From contig JAFGUD010000160.1 in assembly GCA_016938685.1 (NCBI GenBank), positions 1 through 64,000 on the forward strand: DNA of 64,000 nucleotides, in the 5' to 3' direction. The notes under the pieces were generated by a model. It had not been told where the DNA came from. It saw only the letters and a program-made list of their open reading frames with translations, and made no database searches. Shown here in pieces: positions 8,973 to 56,672 of this stretch (position 1 is its first letter; every line of letters begins with the position of its first letter). The translations under genes were made by a program, and so were the position numbers. Origin of the DNA: Bacteroidales bacterium. Lineage in GTDB: Bacteria > Bacteroidota > Bacteroidia > Bacteroidales > JAFGUD01.

Positions 8973-9050
8973 ATCCTAATTTTTCTGACGTGCAAAAGTA
9001 ACTATTAATTTGAGAAAAACTTCTTCTTAATATTAAATAAAAGTTAATTC

Positions 9051-9091
9051 TATAAAAAAAAATTACAACTCACATCGTGAATTGTAATTTT
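9051..9091 (-). terminator. Terminator after rpmB-rpmG-DUF4295
   Basis: AAAATTACAA (9059-9068) pairs with TTGTAATTTT (9082-9091). On the minus strand the stem is followed by a run of about nine T. It lies 23 bases beyond the stop of the 52-residue DUF4295 gene and separates that unit from nusB. Confidence 0.7.
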
Positions 9092-9113
9092 AGCTGAAAT
9101 ATTTGTATGAAAA

Positions 9114-9272
9114 TTATTTTAAATTTTTCAATTCTTCTTTAGCTTTTTCAGTGCTCACAATTTTTTCTTTGAACATATAAGCTCCTGTTTTGGGTGATTT
9201 TACCATTTTAATAATTTTAGTAACACCTTTTGCACCTTTTTTCTGAAGTGTAGCAACAACTTTCTTTGCCAT
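9114..9272 (-). CDS. DUF4295 small basic protein
   Basis: A 52-residue Lys-rich protein beginning MAKKVVATLQKKGAKGVTKI, with the conserved phrase KSPKTGAYMFKEKIV. This matches the DUF4295 family, which in Bacteroidota follows the genes for L28 and L33 and is probably a ribosome-associated protein (inference from context and charge). The start lies 22 bases after the rpmG stop. In many Bacteroidota ftsY comes next; here a terminator and nusB follow instead. Confidence 0.85.
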   Translation of the reverse strand: MAKKVVATLQKKGAKGVTKIIKMVKSPKTGAYMFKEKIVSTEKAKEELKNLK

Positions 9273-9294
9273 AATATAGAGTTTTTAGTGTATC

Positions 9295-9483
9295 TTACTT
9301 AATTTCTTTGTGTACAGTATGTTTTTTTAGGTATGGATTATATTTTTTTATTTCCATACGGTCAGTCGTGTTTCTACGGTTTTTGAATGAATAATAACGA
9401 GAAATACCGGGAACATCTGTGTTTTTTTGTTCGGTGCATTCTAAAATAACCTGTATACGATCGCCTTTCTTTTTCTTTGCCAT
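9295..9483 (-). CDS. rpmG: 50S ribosomal protein L33
   Basis: L33 is a small protein of the large subunit near the E site. The 62-residue sequence has the hallmark [20 protein letters not shown] and [12 protein letters not shown]. The zinc-binding cysteines of C+ forms are absent apart from one Cys near the start (ILECTE), so this is a C- type. It is in one transcript with rpmB upstream and DUF4295 downstream. Confidence 0.95.
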
Positions 9484-9503
9484 GGTTCAATTTTTTAAAA
9501 TGA

Positions 9504-9746
9504 TTAATACTTAGCTAAATATCCTTTTAGGACTGCTTTGTCTAATGCTACTTTTAGCCCAACTTTATGAATTGTTCTTAGTCCATTAGCTGATACTTTT
9601 AACGTTATCCAACGATCTTCTTCTGGTAGATAAAACTTTTTATTTAGAATGTTTGGATAAAACTTTCTTTTTGTCTTTTTGTTGGAATGTGAAACATTAT
9701 TCCCAGACATAACATTTTTTCCTGTTATTTGGCAAACTCTTGACAT
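9504..9746 (-). CDS. rpmB: 50S ribosomal protein L28
   Basis: An 80-residue protein starting MSRVCQITGKNVMSGNNVSH, with the typical SHSNKKTKRKFYPNIL motif and a C-terminal LRTIHKVGLKVALDKA. L28 is needed for 70S assembly. It is the first gene of the rpmB-rpmG-DUF4295 unit and has a plausible promoter upstream. Confidence 0.96.
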   Translation of the reverse strand: MSRVCQITGKNVMSGNNVSHSNKKTKRKFYPNILNKKFYLPEEDRWITLKVSANGLRTIHKVGLKVALDKAVLKGYLAKY

Positions 9747-47881: not shown

Positions 47882-50800
47882 CTAATCCTCTAAAATCTTA
47901 ATATGAGTACCAGCTTCCCAATCTTTAAACTCGTTTGTGTAGTACAAATAACAGGAACTTGCACGAGAAGTATAATTCCCTGCAATGTCGGCTTTTAGGT
48001 CAAGTTTTAGGTGACGTTGTTCATTTGGTTCCATTCCAACGTAATAAATTACAAGTTTTCCGTCAAAGATTTCGTAGTAATCCCACGAATTTTTCTCCGA
48101 AAGTTCTTTTAATTGCCATGGTTGAAGACTCAAACCTGCCGGAATGCCTATTTCTGCTGTTGTCATTGGGATTCCTTTTGTAGATTTATTTTCAATAATA
48201 ATGTTCATTCTTACATTGTCCCCAACTTTTACAGTTTCGCTTTCAAGATTTGTTATTAAATCTACTTTGCAATTTTCACTTGGTGTAAACTTTAAGCTAT
48301 TCCATTCAAAATCAAATGAGTAAGGAATATCATCATTGGAAACAAAGCTGATTTCAATGTTTTGTTTTCCTTTTCCAGTGATATATTCTTTCATGTCTAT
48401 TGAAAATGAATTTAAGTCTTCGAAAGCTATTTTTTTATCAATTGTTTTGCCATTAATTACTATTCTTAATGTAATATCTTCTTTCGTTTTTTTGTACAGT
48501 TTGCTGTATTCTGTCAAAGCTGAAAGTGCCAAAACAGTGGCTTGAGTGCTACCAAAATTTCCAAATGTTCTGTTTTGTTGAATAAATAGTATTGTTTTTT
48601 GAATTTGTTCACTGTTTTTAATGTCTTGTTTTAAAAGAGCTAATAAGTACAACGAAGCAGTTTCAACTTTTAGGCTGATACCTGTAGAATTAGTAATTGA
48701 CGGTTCAATCGAAATAGAATTGAAATCTTTTTTATCAAGTAATTCGGTAATTTCATCTACAAGTTCGTTTGCAATATTTTGTTTGTTCAGATAAAATGCT
48801 GTATTTGCCATCAATCCAAGTCTGTATGGGTCTTTTGATTTTAAAGCCTCTTCTTTTGCCAACAAAAATTCTTTTTCCATGTCAAACATTCCACATTTTG
48901 ACAAAGCGTACAAAACATAAGCATTTACAACGCTTTGATTTGCAAGCCACGAATGGTAGCTATTTGTAGAAAAAGCAAAATTTCCTTTTCCGTCTTTTCT
49001 GCTCAATAGCCATTCTTTTGTTCTTTTAAGCATATTTCCATCAACTCCCTGATAAACATTTTGCATTTCGGTAAATTCCATAATTCCCATTGCTGTAAGC
49101 CCTTCGTGTGCCGGGGTATGACCAAACCATTCAAATCCATTTTCAGAGGTTTCAAAAGTTATCAGTCTTTTGTATCCTTGATCTATGTAGTCAAGTGCTT
49201 TCTTTTCAATGTCAGGTTTTGATTGTCCGGTTTCTTTCAAAAGACTTAAAGCCAGAATGTTAGGATAAGTGCTCATAGAAGTTTGTTCAAAGCAGCCTCC
49301 CGGTTGTCTGAACATTCCTTCAACTCCGGCGGTTATGTCATCTAAAACATTTGCATAAATATTAAAACTTCCGTCAAAGCTGTTTTCAACGGGCTGATTT
49401 ATATCAAAAGTAAAACTAATTGATTTAGAGGAACTTGAAAATGATTCTTTTACAGGAAATCCTTTGGGATAAATTGTTAAATTGTAGTTGAGTTCTTCTA
49501 CATGATTTTCGCTGACAAAGTGAATTTTTATGTTTTCTTCTCCTGCAACCGGCAATGCTCTGAATGAAAATAATTCTTTTAACGAAGAGTTCGCTTTTAC
49601 TGTCACTTCAATTTCAGTGACAGAAATTGCCATAAGATTTTTAGAATGTTGAATAACTATTTTCCCTGTAATATCAGTTTGTGTTGAATTATTTATCACA
49701 ACCGGAACCGACATTGTGTCGTTGTAACTTAGTTCATAAGGAACTTTGGTTTGAATATTTACGGGTTTAATAATGCTCAAATTTTGTTCTGAACGACCAA
49801 TATCGCCATTTCCTGAAATTCCTTCGGTTATTATTTTGAATGTACTGACTTCATCGGGGCAATAAATAGAAACAATTGCTTTTCCGTTTTCGTCAGTTTG
49901 AACATTAGCATTCCAATAAACAGTTGCGTTTCTGTCGCGTGTTTCGTTTTGTTGTCTCCAATATTCTTTTGTGTTGTAGGTTTCAACCTGATTTGTATTG
50001 TTATTACTAATTGTAAAAAGTGAATTTAGATATAATTTTTGATATCTGTTTTTTTTGTAAATATAAGAATTGCCATAAGTTGAGCTATTGGTATTGATAA
50101 TAATAACACCATTTGCAGCTCTGTTTCCGTAAAATGCAGTAGCTTCTGGTCCTTCTATTATATAAACTGAACTAATATTTGATGGATTTACTCTTTCTAA
50201 AATAGGGTCATTAATGTCTGTAACATAACTAATTGGAACTCCGTCAACTATATAAAGTGGCGAATTTGTATTAAAAGAAGAATATCCTCGCATAACAATA
50301 TTTGTGCTAGAACCAACACTTCCGGAAGCATTGCTAATATTCACTCCTGAAACTTTTCCAGAAAGGGCATTTAACGAAGACAACCGCTCTCCTGAAATAT
50401 CTTGAACAGCATATCCGAGAGACTTTGCATCTTTTTTTATACCAAGTCCAGTAATAACAACTTCTGATATGTTTTCTCCTTGCATTTCGTCATCAAAATT
50501 GTCAATTAAATCAGGATTGTCGTTGCTGATTATTAGTTGTTCAGCAATTTTAGTCTCAGAATTGTTTTTGGCTAAATCTACAACCTCTAGTTTATTTGGG
50601 TCAACTTGCTGATCTAAAGTTTCATTATTAGAATTAGTACTATTTGGTTTTGTGTTTTCGTTGTAATCTCCTTGTATTTTATGAGAAGTAATAATTTGCA
50701 CATTGTCTGCAAAATTTACATTTAAAAGAGCATCGTCAGGCAGTTCATTTGTTGAAATCTCTCTGATATAAAATGATTTTGGAGAAAGTCTGTTCGATTT

Positions 50801-52621
50801 TGCTACTAATTGTATATTTGAAGTAGGATCTACATTTGTAAAAATAAAATATCCGTCATCTGTGGTTGTTAGTTGTGCCGCTCTTTGTTGGTTATTTAAT
50901 TCAAAAAGCCAAACTTCTGCTTTTATTCCTTTTTGATTGGTTTTTAATACTTGTCCGGCTATCGTTCTGTTTGTTTCCGCTTGAAATTTAACTATTGGTT
51001 GTTCGTTCAAAATTTCTTTCCAAGTAAATCGTCTCCAACCGTGTGTCATAAGCACAAAATCAAGGGCTTTTTCTGCTTTTTCTTCTTCTTTATCAAAATA
51101 AAAAGATGGTTCATAAATTTTCCCTTTAACCTCAGAACTCATTAAAAACCAGGATAGTATGTTATCTTGTTTGTCGTCAGCAAAAGTTATGTTTTTATCG
51201 TCAATAATTGCAAGTGACAGGTTTGCACTTACCGGCTTATTGTTTGAAGTGGTAATAATTTCAATATCAGTTAGTTCGTCTTTTGCAAATTTGTCTTTTT
51301 TTAGTTTAATTTCTACATTCATTGGCGAAATTTCACCGTAATATATCAAACGTTCGCATTCGGGAGTTCCTGCTGCATTGAAAAGAGTAATTCGTACTAT
51401 TCCGTCAGAAAAATTGTTGCATGGAATAGAAATTTTATTGTTCCCTGCTTTTAAATCAACTCTTTCAATGTATTTTAATGAGTCCCTGATTGTGGCAACC
51501 AAAAAAGTAATTTCTTTGTTTGTTGAGTAAATATTTAAGTTTACTTTTTTATTTTTTGTATTTAGATATGATAGAACAAAACCCGAATTTAGCGACTTGG
51601 GTAATAAAAAAACAGTGTCTAGTTTGTGCGGTTTTGTAATTTGAGCTTTGTATTGAACATTTTTTTGTGGCGTAAAACTAAAAGCTCCCATTCCTTGATG
51701 AAAACTCTGAAAATCAGCTACAATTTTATTGTTTTCGTCTAATATAACTCCCTCAATATCAGCCGGTAATCCGAATTCATTTAGTGCTTCAAAAGCAATT
51801 TTGTTTTCAGCATTAGCAACAATGTAGCCTCCTTCAGGAAAAAATGCTAAATCAATATTGTTCAGCACAATAGGTATAGAACGGCTTATAGATTCGTTTT
51901 GTTCGTTATATTTAATCTGTATGTTTAATAAACCATCGTTTGTGTTTAGATTTTCTGGCAGTTTAAATTTTACGTCAAGTTTTCCTTCGCTATCTGTTGT
52001 TAGAGTTTGTTCATCAATCAATTTATTGTTAATGAGTATTTTAGCAGTAACCGGATAATCCGAAATAGCTTCATTTTTTAGGTTTTTTATACTTAAATCA
52101 GCCACAACTTTTGAGCCGGGACCATAAGCTTCTTTGTCAAAATCAACTTTTAATAAAACATTTGGCATTACAACTTTTTGAATAATTAGTTCTTTTTCAA
52201 AAAAGTCATCGTTAGCAAAATTTTTCATCCAGTTTGTATAAGCTTTAATTTTATACATTCCGCCTTTAAATGATTGACCAATAGTGAAATATCCATTAGC
52301 AACACCTTTATTTATGCTAAGAGTTTTTTTCTCGATAACACTTCCTTTTGGGTCAATAAGTTCAATATAAACCATGTTGCTAACAGGATTTAATTTATTT
52401 GTAATCCCATTTGCTAAATAAACTTTATAAAATATATTATCATCTTGCTGATAAAGTGTTTTATCAATGTGTAAATAAATTTTTTCGGGTGTTTTAGCTG
52501 TATTATAGACAGTAAGATTGTTAGAAAGTCTTTCGGGAAATGTTTGTGCATTCGCCGAAAATGCAATTAACGATAATATAAAAAATATTATCCCTGTTTT
52601 TAAGGTAGTTTTTCTTTTCAT
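47882..52621 (-). CDS. Alpha-2-macroglobulin with internal SusC-type plug
   Basis: A 1579-residue exported protein (signal peptide ending SANAQ). Order: MG2 domain (about 40-130, KIYLHIDKTLYQQDD), more macroglobulin-like domains to about 560, a carboxypeptidase-regulatory-like domain (about 575-665), then a TonB plug domain (about 715-845) with SEVVITGLGIKKDAKSLGYA, GKVSGVNISNASGSVGSSTN, PLYIVDGVPISYV and YGNRAANGVIIINT. The A2M core then follows (about 870-960) with the thioester domain GCFEQTSMSTYPN near residue 1107. A2Ms trap proteases by a reactive thioester; CxEQ is intact. The plug is the form seen in SusC/RagA. It lies 18 bases downstream of the plugless barrel gene and ends at a terminator. 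Confidence 0.9.
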   Translation of the reverse strand: MKRKTTLKTGIIFFILSLIAFSANAQTFPERLSNNLTVYNTAKTPEKIYLHIDKTLYQQDDNIFYKVYLANGITNKLNPVSNMVYIELIDPKGSVIEKKTLSINKGVANGYFTIGQSFKGGMYKIKAYTNWMKNFANDDFFEKELIIQKVVMPNVLLKVDFDKEAYGPGSKVVADLSIKNLKNEAISDYPVTAKILINNKLIDEQTLTTDSEGKLDVKFKLPENLNTNDGLLNIQIKYNEQNESISRSIPIVLNNIDLAFFPEGGYIVANAENKIAFEALNEFGLPADIEGVILDENNKIVADFQSFHQGMGAFSFTPQKNVQYKAQITKPHKLDTVFLLPKSLNSGFVLSYLNTKNKKVNLNIYSTNKEITFLVATIRDSLKYIERVDLKAGNNKISIPCNNFSDGIVRITLFNAAGTPECERLIYYGEISPMNVEIKLKKDKFAKDELTDIEIITTSNNKPVSANLSLAIIDDKNITFADDKQDNILSWFLMSSEVKGKIYEPSFYFDKEEEKAEKALDFVLMTHGWRRFTWKEILNEQPIVKFQAETNRTIAGQVLKTNQKGIKAEVWLFELNNQQRAAQLTTTDDGYFIFTNVDPTSNIQLVAKSNRLSPKSFYIREISTNELPDDALLNVNFADNVQIITSHKIQGDYNENTKPNSTNSNNETLDQQVDPNKLEVVDLAKNNSETKIAEQLIISNDNPDLIDNFDDEMQGENISEVVITGLGIKKDAKSLGYAVQDISGERLSSLNALSGKVSGVNISNASGSVGSSTNIVMRGYSSFNTNSPLYIVDGVPISYVTDINDPILERVNPSNISSVYIIEGPEATAFYGNRAANGVIIINTNSSTYGNSYIYKKNRYQKLYLNSLFTISNNNTNQVETYNTKEYWRQQNETRDRNATVYWNANVQTDENGKAIVSIYCPDEVSTFKIITEGISGNGDIGRSEQNLSIIKPVNIQTKVPYELSYNDTMSVPVVINNSTQTDITGKIVIQHSKNLMAISVTEIEVTVKANSSLKELFSFRALPVAGEENIKIHFVSENHVEELNYNLTIYPKGFPVKESFSSSSKSISFTFDINQPVENSFDGSFNIYANVLDDITAGVEGMFRQPGGCFEQTSMSTYPNILALSLLKETGQSKPDIEKKALDYIDQGYKRLITFETSENGFEWFGHTPAHEGLTAMGIMEFTEMQNVYQGVDGNMLKRTKEWLLSRKDGKGNFAFSTNSYHSWLANQSVVNAYVLYALSKCGMFDMEKEFLLAKEEALKSKDPYRLGLMANTAFYLNKQNIANELVDEITELLDKKDFNSISIEPSITNSTGISLKVETASLYLLALLKQDIKNSEQIQKTILFIQQNRTFGNFGSTQATVLALSALTEYSKLYKKTKEDITLRIVINGKTIDKKIAFEDLNSFSIDMKEYITGKGKQNIEISFVSNDDIPYSFDFEWNSLKFTPSENCKVDLITNLESETVKVGDNVRMNIIIENKSTKGIPMTTAEIGIPAGLSLQPWQLKELSEKNSWDYYEIFDGKLVIYYVGMEPNEQRHLKLDLKADIAGNYTSRASSCYLYYTNEFKDWEAGTHIKILED

Positions 52622-52639
52622 AATAGAAGGTTTTTTGGG

Positions 52640-55351
52640 TTAAAATCGTATGCTGAGTGAAGTTCCGTATGATTTAAGTGCCGGAATATTAAATAAATCA
52701 ATTGCTTGAGTTGTCTGATAACCAAATAAAGCCGTTTGTGGGTCAACTCCGCTGTAAGGTGTAAATAGCAATAAGTTTTGTGCCCACACAGATAATGAAA
52801 CCTCAAAATTTCTGATTTTAGTTATTTTATATTTTAAAGAAATTTCTTTTAGTCTAAACCATGTTGCATCTTCAATTGCTGCTTCTGCAACGCCGCTATA
52901 TCCGTACATTTGCCAGAAATATTGGTCAACTATAACAGGTTTAGTATTAATTTCGCTGTTTTGTGTAACTCCTTCAAAAACATATTCTGTTTGGTCTCTT
53001 AAATCGGCTGATTCTTGTGATGTTCCGTAATAGTTTTGCACATTTTTGGTTCCGTTCCAAACATCGCCTCCTTTTTTGTATTCTAAGTTCACATTTAAAC
53101 TTAAATTTCTTATAGTAATTCCGGAATTCAGGTTTAATATCCAGTCCGGTGTTGGGTCTCCAATTACAGACATCTGATAATCTACTAATGGAAAGCCATA
53201 AGATGAAATTATTTTATTTCCCTCAGAATCTTTCAGGAAACTTGAGCCAACAATTGCTCCAATTGCTTGTCCTTCAATCAGGTTAAGAGAAATATCTGAA
53301 AATCCGGCGTACGGAATTCTATCAATATTTGAGTATATTTGAGTTACTTCTGTTCTTGGTTTGTTAAAAATTAGGTCTATATAAAATTTGGAACTTTTAA
53401 TAGAAAATTCGTTTGAAACTTTAATTTCAAGATTTTGTTCTGTATAATCTGCAACATTTTTTAATATAAAGTTACTCTCTAGTACCGGAAAAATGGAGTT
53501 TTTGTGTTTGCTTATTTTATAATTAACATTTAGATTTAAATCATATCGATTTCCGTAATAATCTGTTTTAAAACCAAAATCTAGCCTTTTTGCTGTTTCG
53601 GGAAGAATGTTTTCAGAAATAGTTGGGTAATAAATTTCTTTAAATGAATCAAAATTGCTACTGTTATAGAGTAAGGTGTTAAAATACAAATTTTGAATAT
53701 GTATCGGATATTCTGTAACAATTTCTGAATACCTTGTATATAAAGTGAAAATTCTGTAATTTAATCCAATAAGACCAGAAGGTGAAAAATAGATTTTTTG
53801 AGAATTAAGTGTGTTTGAAGAATAAGTAGAAGCGTTGGTTTCAAGCATAAGAAAAGTTTTTTTGAGAAATTCATAATTAAACTCATTATTAAAAATAAGT
53901 TCGTTTGTATTTCTTTTATTTTCGATATTCCAACTATTTATGTAAGAATTCAAATTGTTTTTTGAATCGTTATAATTAAAAACATAAGTTAATTTACTAT
54001 TGAGTTGAGTATCTCTGTACCGACTAGTTCTTTTGCGATAATAGCTACTTGCATGGAAGGATAAACTAGTGTTAAAAAAGAAATGGTTTTGCGATGATTC
54101 TCTTTTTAGGTATTCGTCAATCGGGTAATTGCTATATCCGGAGTTTTTTTCGTCAATTGTTCGGTCAAAAGCAAATAAATTATACATATCTAATCCACTA
54201 TAATCTCGAGTGTAAAATTTTAAACTTCCTCCAAATTGTCTGTACTTGTTGTAATCATAGCTGTCGTTGACTATTTTGTAAGGATTTTTTGCGTCAGGAT
54301 AATATGCCGAATAATTGGTATTATTATTATTAAAATTAACCGGAGTTGTCATTACAGATTGCACCAGCCTTGAATAATTGGCGCCGTTTTCAGGAAAAAT
54401 TATTCTATTATCTGATAAAAAACTAGAAAAATCAATGATTCCAATTCTTACATTGTTATTGTTAATTGCAAAATTATAATTGTTGTTACTTTTGTTTGTA
54501 TTTGGCACAATTCCAAATATATAGTCATTTTTGTAGCTGAAAATAAAATCGCGATTTGCTAATTTTGTAGAAAATCTGAATGAATTCTTTAAACTGTAAC
54601 CTGTGTCAAAAAAATCATAAGGATTGTATATTTCACTTGCCGAAAGTGTATTTACATTACTTCCAAAACTATACTTAGAAGAAATATCGTAAACCGAGTT
54701 AATTCCCTGGCTGTAAGTTTTTTGTAGTACGGGGAGTTTATTTGGTAGATTAACGGCAAAAGAAGAATTATAATCAATAGAGAATTTTTTCAGGTAAAAT
54801 CTGTCTGTCTCTATTAAATATTCTTTTGATTTTTTATCAAAATAAATATTGTTGATATTAGAATTAAAATAGTTGTAATTACTGGAATGTCCATTGTTGT
54901 AGTATTCAACAGCGTCAATTGGTAAACCCCATATACTTATAGTATTATTTATTTTCTGGATCTTTGAGTCATAACCAATATTTGTCATTTCCGCATGTCC
55001 AATGTTTTTTTCGGGAGTTGTTTTTTCTGTGTTTTTATCCAAATACGGAGTAACAGTTACTTTTGTCACAGGAGAATTTATTGTAACAGAATAGCAGATA
55101 CTATTCCAGTAATAATATATTATACTACCTGGTTGTACATTTACTTTGTAGTGACCATTGCTTTTTGTGTTAAATGATTCTTTGTGTTGATTATTATAAT
55201 AAACATAAATCCATACATTTTCAGCTGGATTTCCTCTGTAATCAGTTAGATAGCCTTCTACGGTAATAGTATTCGCTTCTTGATTTTGGGCTGTAACTAT
55301 TTTTGATGTGAATAAAAAAACTAAAAAAATCAATAGTAGAGTTTTCTTCAT
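52640..55351 (-). CDS. SusC-like barrel lacking a plug domain
   Basis: About 903 residues when started at the internal Met (MKKTLLLIFLVFLF...); the longer frame adds 18 residues without signal character. A signal peptide and a carboxypeptidase-regulatory-like domain (about 30-118) are followed by a short poorly conserved stretch (about 120-190) where a SusC protein has its plug of about 120 residues. From about 195 it matches SusC barrels: IDYNSSFAVNLPNKLPVLQK then YSQG, later IGDPTPDWILNLNSGI, YKKGGDVWNGTKNV, WFRLKEISLKYKI and an aromatic C-terminus (GTSLSIRF). No SusD gene is adjacent. Its partner is probably the plug-bearing A2M 18 bases downstream. Confidence 0.85.
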   Translation of the reverse strand: MKKTLLLIFLVFLFTSKIVTAQNQEANTITVEGYLTDYRGNPAENVWIYVYYNNQHKESFNTKSNGHYKVNVQPGSIIYYYWNSICYSVTINSPVTKVTVTPYLDKNTEKTTPEKNIGHAEMTNIGYDSKIQKINNTISIWGLPIDAVEYYNNGHSSNYNYFNSNINNIYFDKKSKEYLIETDRFYLKKFSIDYNSSFAVNLPNKLPVLQKTYSQGINSVYDISSKYSFGSNVNTLSASEIYNPYDFFDTGYSLKNSFRFSTKLANRDFIFSYKNDYIFGIVPNTNKSNNNYNFAINNNNVRIGIIDFSSFLSDNRIIFPENGANYSRLVQSVMTTPVNFNNNNTNYSAYYPDAKNPYKIVNDSYDYNKYRQFGGSLKFYTRDYSGLDMYNLFAFDRTIDEKNSGYSNYPIDEYLKRESSQNHFFFNTSLSFHASSYYRKRTSRYRDTQLNSKLTYVFNYNDSKNNLNSYINSWNIENKRNTNELIFNNEFNYEFLKKTFLMLETNASTYSSNTLNSQKIYFSPSGLIGLNYRIFTLYTRYSEIVTEYPIHIQNLYFNTLLYNSSNFDSFKEIYYPTISENILPETAKRLDFGFKTDYYGNRYDLNLNVNYKISKHKNSIFPVLESNFILKNVADYTEQNLEIKVSNEFSIKSSKFYIDLIFNKPRTEVTQIYSNIDRIPYAGFSDISLNLIEGQAIGAIVGSSFLKDSEGNKIISSYGFPLVDYQMSVIGDPTPDWILNLNSGITIRNLSLNVNLEYKKGGDVWNGTKNVQNYYGTSQESADLRDQTEYVFEGVTQNSEINTKPVIVDQYFWQMYGYSGVAEAAIEDATWFRLKEISLKYKITKIRNFEVSLSVWAQNLLLFTPYSGVDPQTALFGYQTTQAIDLFNIPALKSYGTSLSIRF

Positions 55352-55577: not shown

Positions 55578-56672
55578 CTAAAATCTATAACTCAATGAAA
55601 AAATATGTGAATAAAGAGCAATTGATTGGTTGGCAACATCAGTGAGAGCATAATCGAGGTAAAATCCATGAAAAATAAGTCCAAGTCCAATGCTTGGCAC
55701 AAAATCAAGGCTATTTTCTTTGAAATATTCTTCTCCTTCGGCAACATTATTTCTAAAATCAGGAATAAGTTGAAAATTATTCACACCGGCGCGAATAAAA
55801 ACAGCTTTTTTGTAGTTAAATTCAAACCCTGCTTGCGGATAAATACTAATTGGATTAAAACTTAAAAGAGCGTTCCTTTCTCCGTCAAAAGTAAAATTAA
55901 TATCAATTTCGCCTTGAAGTCCTGTATTATCAGAAAATTTAAAATATCTACCAACGCCTGAGTTTAAAATCGGCATAGCAATTTCCAGATTGTTTTTTGG
56001 AAGTTCGTTTCCGGTTTCTTCAAAAACAATTCTCATTTGATCGCTTATGTTGTAGAACCAAGCTGTAAATCCGGTTGTTGCGTTAGTTAGGTTGGCTCCA
56101 AAATTCCATTTGTTTAGTTTATATTGAACACCAGCATCAAGAGCAAAACCGTAGGCAGTAGCAAATTCGCCTTGATTTCTAAAAATAATTTTTGCATTTG
56201 CTCCGTAACTTAACCCATCAATATTCGATTTTTTGCCAAAAGAAGCCAAAAGAGCATAATCAGCAACAGAAAAAAGTTCAATTCTATCGTAATCTATGTT
56301 TCCATTTTCGTCGTATAGATATAATGTGTTCTGAATATCATCAACACCAAGTCTTATTAAAGAAACCGCAACGCCTGTACTATCATTAAGTTTGTATGAA
56401 AAACCGGCATAGTCATATTTTGCTATTCCTGCAAAATATTCAGAGTGCATCAACGAAGCCTGAAATTTGCTTTGCAAATTATTCAAACCTGCCGGATTAT
56501 AGTAAGAAGCAGAAAAATCATTAACATTTGCTACAACACTATTTCCGAGCGAAATGTTTTTAGCACTCACGCCAATTGTAAGATAATCATTGCTGTATTT
56601 AAGAATCTGAGCATTAAGATTACTTAAAAGCATTAAAAAGAATATAGTAATTGCTGAAAAAATCTTTATCAT
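55578..56672 (-). CDS. PorV/PorQ-like outer-membrane protein
   Basis: A 364-residue exported beta-barrel protein. Signal peptide (ending near SNLNAQ), then GVSAKNISLGNSVVANVNDF and SASYYNPAGLNNL, which are hallmarks of the PorV/PorQ group. PorV shuttles or anchors T9SS cargo and PorQ assists PorZ; this copy is shorter than PorV and resembles PorQ more in length, but the assignment stays open. It lies upstream of and parallel to the barrel-A2M pair, 226 bases away, so a functional link is possible but not shown. Two T9SS cargo genes elsewhere in the window fit an active T9SS. Confidence 0.75.
   Translation of the reverse strand: MIKIFSAITIFFLMLLSNLNAQILKYSNDYLTIGVSAKNISLGNSVVANVNDFSASYYNPAGLNNLQSKFQASLMHSEYFAGIAKYDYAGFSYKLNDSTGVAVSLIRLGVDDIQNTLYLYDENGNIDYDRIELFSVADYALLASFGKKSNIDGLSYGANAKIIFRNQGEFATAYGFALDAGVQYKLNKWNFGANLTNATTGFTAWFYNISDQMRIVFEETGNELPKNNLEIAMPILNSGVGRYFKFSDNTGLQGEIDINFTFDGERNALLSFNPISIYPQAGFEFNYKKAVFIRAGVNNFQLIPDFRNNVAEGEEYFKENSLDFVPSIGLGLIFHGFYLDYALTDVANQSIALYSHIFSLSYRF

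Follow-up and report, generated by a model that had tools for sequence, protein, structure and literature searches.

A probable split SusC-type transporter in Bacteroidota whose plug domain is carried by an alpha-2-macroglobulin

In the window (the whole 64,000-nt stretch of a Bacteroidales contig analysed here), two neighbouring genes probably encode a split SusC-type TonB-dependent transporter, in which the barrel is one protein and the plug is supplied in trans by an alpha-2-macroglobulin (A2M). Both genes lie on the minus strand, as do the features within them given below. The plugless barrel gene (52640-55351, 903 aa), recognised from HMM, ortholog and structure evidence, is the upstream member, and the A2M gene with an inserted SusC plug (47882-52621, 1579 aa), recognised with Pfam and NCBIfam, follows after a gap of 18 nt. 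The coordinates, gene order, strand and gap reported in an initial annotation were all correct when rechecked on the sequence. Together the pair encodes a TonB box, a plug and a barrel, with no SusD lipoprotein lid adjacent; the earlier remark that SusD is absent nearby was borne out, with three SusD matches in the genome itself and none on the contig of the pair. The adjacent genes in the window were the barrel gene, a PorV2-like gene and a FecCD gene. Upstream of the pair, 55578-56672 encodes a PorV2-type protein (NF052325), a putative type IX sorting protein, which is not conserved next to the pair elsewhere.

The 903-aa protein was confirmed to be a SusC-type barrel without TonB box and plug, its fold being that of the predicted structure. 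It starts with a signal peptide (residues 1-21, 55289-55351; sequence, structure and orthologs), whose cleavage exposes Q22, a residue invariant in 34 orthologs. This is followed by a CarboxypepD_reg-like N-terminal sandwich (29-90, 55082-55267; AlphaFold fold, with a Pfam match in orthologs L081 and L082), a disordered linker in place of the SusC TonB box and plug (95-169, 54845-55069; pLDDT <50 and no plug by HMM), and a 22-strand barrel (190-902, 52646-54784; AlphaFold and Foldseek). The sandwich, the disordered stretch and 22 long transmembrane strands, counted from the strand list, were predicted by AlphaFold on 34 orthologs (mean pLDDT 81), and the best Foldseek match of the predicted barrel was SusC BT2264 (E ~1e-39, TM 0.66). 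The barrel protein itself had no Pfam or NCBIfam match above cut-off: it did not match TIGR04056 (cut-off 368 bits), and its orthologs scored 152-173 bits; the family was placed through the orthologs and the predicted structure. The carboxypeptidase-like N-domain and the missing plug had both been described in the initial annotation, and both descriptions were upheld.

The A2M protein carries a type I signal peptide with Q26 exposed and no lipobox (residues 1-25, 52547-52621; sequence and orthologs), an MG2 domain (47-130, 52232-52483; Pfam 2.9e-14) and a CarboxypepD_reg-like domain with a sub-threshold Pfam match (553-614, 50780-50965). Next come linker 1, which is fast-evolving, disordered and a candidate for the remaining bait (615-713, 50483-50779; structure prediction and conservation), the TonB box region ENISEVVITGLG (716-727, 50441-50476; sequence, orthologs and conservation), the SusC-type plug domain (728-847, 50081-50440, with the PF07715 match at 50105-50404; Pfam, NCBIfam and solved match) and linker 2 (848-895, 49937-50080; structure prediction and conservation). 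The C-terminal part contains the PF00207 A2M domain (900-988, 49658-49924; Pfam 2.6e-11), the TED domain (1089-1372, 48506-49357; Pfam 1.6e-31) with the thioester motif GCFEQ (1109-1113, 49283-49297), kept in all 34 plug-A2Ms listed, and a receptor-binding/MG8-like domain (1486-1564, 47930-48166; Pfam). With MG2, PF00207 and TED above the Pfam cut-offs and GCFEQ as the CXEQ thioester, the domains are those of a Type I A2M; the PBP1c operon gene of that type was not found at the pair.

The plug within the A2M, which had been noticed earlier beside MG2 and GCFEQ, was recovered by PF07715 (residues 740-839, 2.2e-12) and by TIGR04056, positions 76-258 of which matched residues 716-906 (3.2e-38), while the SusC signature TIGR04057 was below its cut-off. 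The best solved match of residues 715-847 was SusC BT_2264 (1.4e-23), the same SusC that was the top Foldseek match of the barrel. In AlphaFold, the isolated A2M middle piece folded poorly (mean 57, with a confidence of ~30-60 for the plug), and the plug fold was therefore assigned from sequence. The TonB box was present in the plug-A2Ms listed.

By profile matching, the two proteins were shown to be complementary parts of one SusC model. At the ortholog locus L081, the barrel covered TIGR04056 positions 213-981, all after the plug, in addition to a CarbopepD_reg_2 match, and the neighbouring A2M covered positions 75-224, with almost no overlap. The segment missing from the barrel (TIGR04056 ~75-224) is, at this level, exactly the segment carried by the A2M. 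With an HMM built from ordinary SusC plugs only, the A2M plugs scored a median of 114 bits, compared with ≤4.5 bits in the 34 paired barrels even when run unfiltered, which rules out a sub-threshold plug hidden in the barrel; Pfam (PF07715) and the predicted structure likewise gave no plug in the barrel chain.

Within the A2M, the plug had been placed between macroglobulin domains. This stood and could be refined: by domain order, the plug appears to sit at the A2M bait-region position, with a TonB box (ISEVVITGLG) ahead of it. In the alignment with plug-less orthologs, the plug, the TonB box and the two disordered, variable linkers span the interval from MG6/CarboxypepD to PF00207, where the plug-less A2M relatives have a charged low-complexity stretch. 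The bait assignment draws on the E. coli A2M, in which untethering of the disordered bait region triggers the thioester (PMC4498604). Mean pairwise identity in the interval was 14% for the linker before the TonB box (the least conserved part), 38% for the plug and 56.6% for the TonB box, which is among the most conserved parts. This conservation suggests that TonB may still pull the plug.

The relatives of the A2M were gathered with its C-terminal 695 residues (query A1), which are free of plug or barrel information, from named genomes, 393 genomes of the order and 395 genomes of the phylum, and duplicates were removed. At the strict cut-off, the family was found in 16 of the 393 genomes of the order and 5 of the 395 of the phylum. 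A plugless barrel lay directly upstream on the same strand in all 36 distinct plug-bearing full-length A2Ms with a readable upstream region (33 and 3 from separate search sets), and the median gap was 4 nt in the 33 pairs covered by this statistic. Beside the plug-less A2Ms, no plugless barrel was found in 41 distinct cases, each with at least 3 kb upstream (Fisher p ~1e-22 for 36/36 vs 0/41, shared ancestry uncorrected), nor did a six-frame search near them reveal a missed or frameshifted barrel. In a few cases no barrel was visible beside a plug-bearing A2M, and these genes begin at or near a contig end. Since the same arrangement recurs at 36 distinct loci, an assembly artefact or local gene fusion was ruled out. 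No further conserved neighbour or third operon member was present among the surveyed loci.

The distribution of the pair is widespread yet patchy, covering Bacteroidales, Marinilabiliales, Cytophagales and Flavobacteriaceae. The carriers include Psychroserpens, Winogradskyella, Aquimarina, Dokdonia, Pustulibacterium, Tenacibaculum, Chryseolinea, Cesiribacter, Nafulsella, Xanthocytophaga, Labilibacter and Plebeiobacterium, and a search of a plasmid collection gave distant matches only.

The pairing is an old one that has been strictly maintained, and it did not arise repeatedly. The paired barrels group in a single clade (SH-aLRT 100), separate from every plug-bearing SusC sampled. Only three changes of the plug label are required on the A2M tree, and the barrel was absent with the plug in both independent contrasts; with only three label changes and two contrasts, the independent events are few. 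At least two lineages (a large plug-less clade and a Saprospiraceae group) have neither plug nor barrel, which fits an old plug that was later lost, the barrel being absent in each case; the direction is read from a midpoint root. The distances of barrels and A2Ms correlated (r 0.88-0.93), and the plug-barrel partial r fell from 0.33 (p 0.001) for raw distances to 0.28 (p 0.03) once distances were corrected and to 0.15 (p 0.08) when both A2M halves served as controls; in this mirror-tree test, the signal of plug-barrel coevolution beyond shared ancestry was weak and depended on the control. The plug tree was poorly resolved and does not show whether a single SusC gave rise to both plug and barrel.

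In plug-less lineages, the bait interval contains TonB-box-like LNEVVV stretches and an extra CarboxypepD domain. At L183 (595-5079), the bait interval of the A2M consists of CarboxypepD, a TonB box and the first half of a plug only, and the plug-less A2Ms at L103, L123 and L178 have a TonB C-terminal domain (PF03544) there. The TonB-box-like stretches, the extra CarboxypepD, the truncated plug and PF03544 are possibly traces.

Plugs were also found in related proteins without a barrel. In TED-less MG-plug proteins of 780-950 aa (e.g., L089, L090 and L093-L097), the plug occupies the bait position, and the adjacent genes include no plugless barrel; these plugs are for the most part truncated, beginning at model position ~30-67 and scoring 37-72 bits, and most are without a TonB box. 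Such stand-alone proteins were rejected as further split receptors, there being no plugless partner barrel beside them. A distant 1981-aa A2M on plasmid pAT2 of Aureibacter tunicatorum (L195, 4425-10370) likewise carries its plug at the bait position, again with no plugless barrel adjacent. A plug in an A2M-like protein alone therefore does not imply a split receptor. The split receptor proposed in the initial annotation is partly supported: for the full-length thioester A2Ms, neither of the two findings named there as refuting it was made, with no plug detected in the barrel and the contrast of 36/36 vs 0/41, but the proposal does not extend to the TED-less MG-plug proteins and the Aureibacter A2M. 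At L098, a 223-aa protein (9003-9674) whose C-terminal part is a plug and which lacks a barrel adjoins an MG protein.

The sister of the paired barrels is a 1623-aa protein (L088, 7408-12279, G021:C58) with CarboxypepD, VIT, VWA, TonB box, plug and barrel in one chain. Like the pair, this VIT-VWA-SusC fusion has an inhibitor-like module directly before the TonB box and plug, and a related barrel; unlike the pair, it is a single polypeptide in which VIT-VWA replaces the A2M. Its neighbours encode a GldM-domain protein, CarboxypepD proteins and, as judged by eye, FecR-like and sigma-factor-like proteins. VIT-VWA proteins of ~800 aa (L198-L205 and further matches) are common in Bacteroidales and, by eye, mostly end in TonB_C; those at L197 and L206 diverge at their ends, and that at L207 has a sorting-signal-like tail. 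A2M and VIT-VWA (inhibitor-heavy-chain-like) are components of animal protease inhibitors. Two kinds of inhibitor-like protein thus share the same pair of TonB-facing module types (TonB box-plug and TonB_C).

In an ordinary TonB-dependent receptor, both ends of the plug face the periplasm, so that a periplasmic A2M holding a plug by its two ends poses no topological obstacle to insertion of that plug into a barrel. Given the type I signal peptide and the missing lipobox, the A2M is likely periplasmic, and its plug would insert from the periplasm into the partner barrel, with the A2M body hanging beneath the pore and closing it. Such physical docking of the A2M plug in the partner barrel is likely, and a pore plugged in trans with the A2M below is the most economical model. 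Because the TonB box travels with the plug, it is plausible that TonB would bind the box and pull the plug, by which the pore would open and the bait segment would be strained. With less certainty, proteases or other proteins that enter through the pore, or periplasmic ones, might cut the flanking linkers, free the plug/bait tether and fire the thioester trap; the outcome would be an outer-membrane-anchored, TonB-linked protease trap. A coupling of the pair to protease trapping is a real possibility that falls short of probable. The fuller scheme of a TonB-powered protease trap, with proton-motive force acting through TonB on the bait, pore opening and covalent trapping as one event, and the grafting of TonB-facing modules onto A2M and VIT-VWA proteins as a wider habit of Bacteroidota, is a less probable, speculative reading.

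The plug-barrel pair could also be no more than an outer-membrane anchor for the A2M, with no transport and TonB incidental. Known bacterial A2Ms need membrane anchoring, ECAM having an inner-membrane anchor (PMC4498604) and MagD being anchored by MagB (PMC5764988), and a tether would suit plug-A2Ms that have neither an obvious lipobox nor a SusD lid. However, the kept and highly conserved TonB box is needless for a passive anchor, and a complete 22-strand barrel is costly for this purpose compared with a lipid, which makes a pure tether rather unlikely. A nutrient or peptide importer, with the A2M as a periplasmic cargo acceptor or cage and not a defence protein, is clearly unlikely: although SusC/RagA relatives import glycans and peptides, and the thioester/TED could capture cargo covalently, conserved uptake genes, whether for SusD, enzymes or other components, are missing next to the pair.

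The barrel-less plugs of the TED-less MG proteins and the Aureibacter A2M, the few independent changes and the weak coevolution could be read as signs that the A2M plug is a structural or regulatory domain acting outside the neighbouring barrel, the association being inherited linkage. This is improbable, as most TED-less plugs are truncated, the scores being 37-72 bits compared with the median of 114, the barrel is without precisely the plug part in every pair, and plug and barrel are absent together. The initial annotation had also raised export of the A2M through the barrel, by which the A2M or part of it would reach the cell surface. A precedent exists in Myxococcus, where the TonB-dependent Oar is reported to be needed for export of the PopC protease (PMC6434023). 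In the present case, such an export route found no support and is highly improbable: the signal peptide of the A2M is of type I, no surface-sorting family was matched, and export of the carrier would take the plug along, whereas a usable TonB box must stay in the periplasm.

Under the preferred reading, a split transporter with the plug in trans, the pair would physically connect bacterial A2Ms with both the outer membrane and a source of energy, and would explain a folded domain within a bait region. How the plug is inserted and removed is a long-standing question, and the role of bacterial A2Ms is still debated; a conserved natural split with the plug in trans would allow plug insertion and removal to be studied directly. 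Plug and barrel of TonB-dependent transporters normally form one chain. In the open-access literature, no description was found of split plug/barrel receptors or of an A2M combined with SusC/TonB.

Compared with SusC/RagA (TIGR04056; BT2264, BT1763 and RagA), the pair has the same barrel fold, CarboxypepD-like N-domain, TonB box and plug sequence, but its plug and TonB box are in a separate polypeptide, SusD is absent and the barrel is below the TIGR04056 cut-off. The plug-A2M shares MG2, PF00207, a TED with CXEQ thioester and a C-terminal MG domain with the Type I A2Ms (E. coli ECAM/YfhM and Salmonella SaA2M), while its bait position is occupied by a SusC plug and TonB box, no lipid anchor was seen, and the partner gene encodes a barrel and not PBP1c (PMC5764988). 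Like the Type II A2M MagD of the Pseudomonas aeruginosa mag operon, it would be periplasmic with an operon-encoded partner (PMC5764988); MagD, in contrast, has no thioester and has an inner-membrane partner, and the paper on it makes no mention of TonB. The inner membrane is where known A2Ms are anchored (PMC4498604, PMC5764988), whereas the barrel described here would hold its A2M at the outer membrane.
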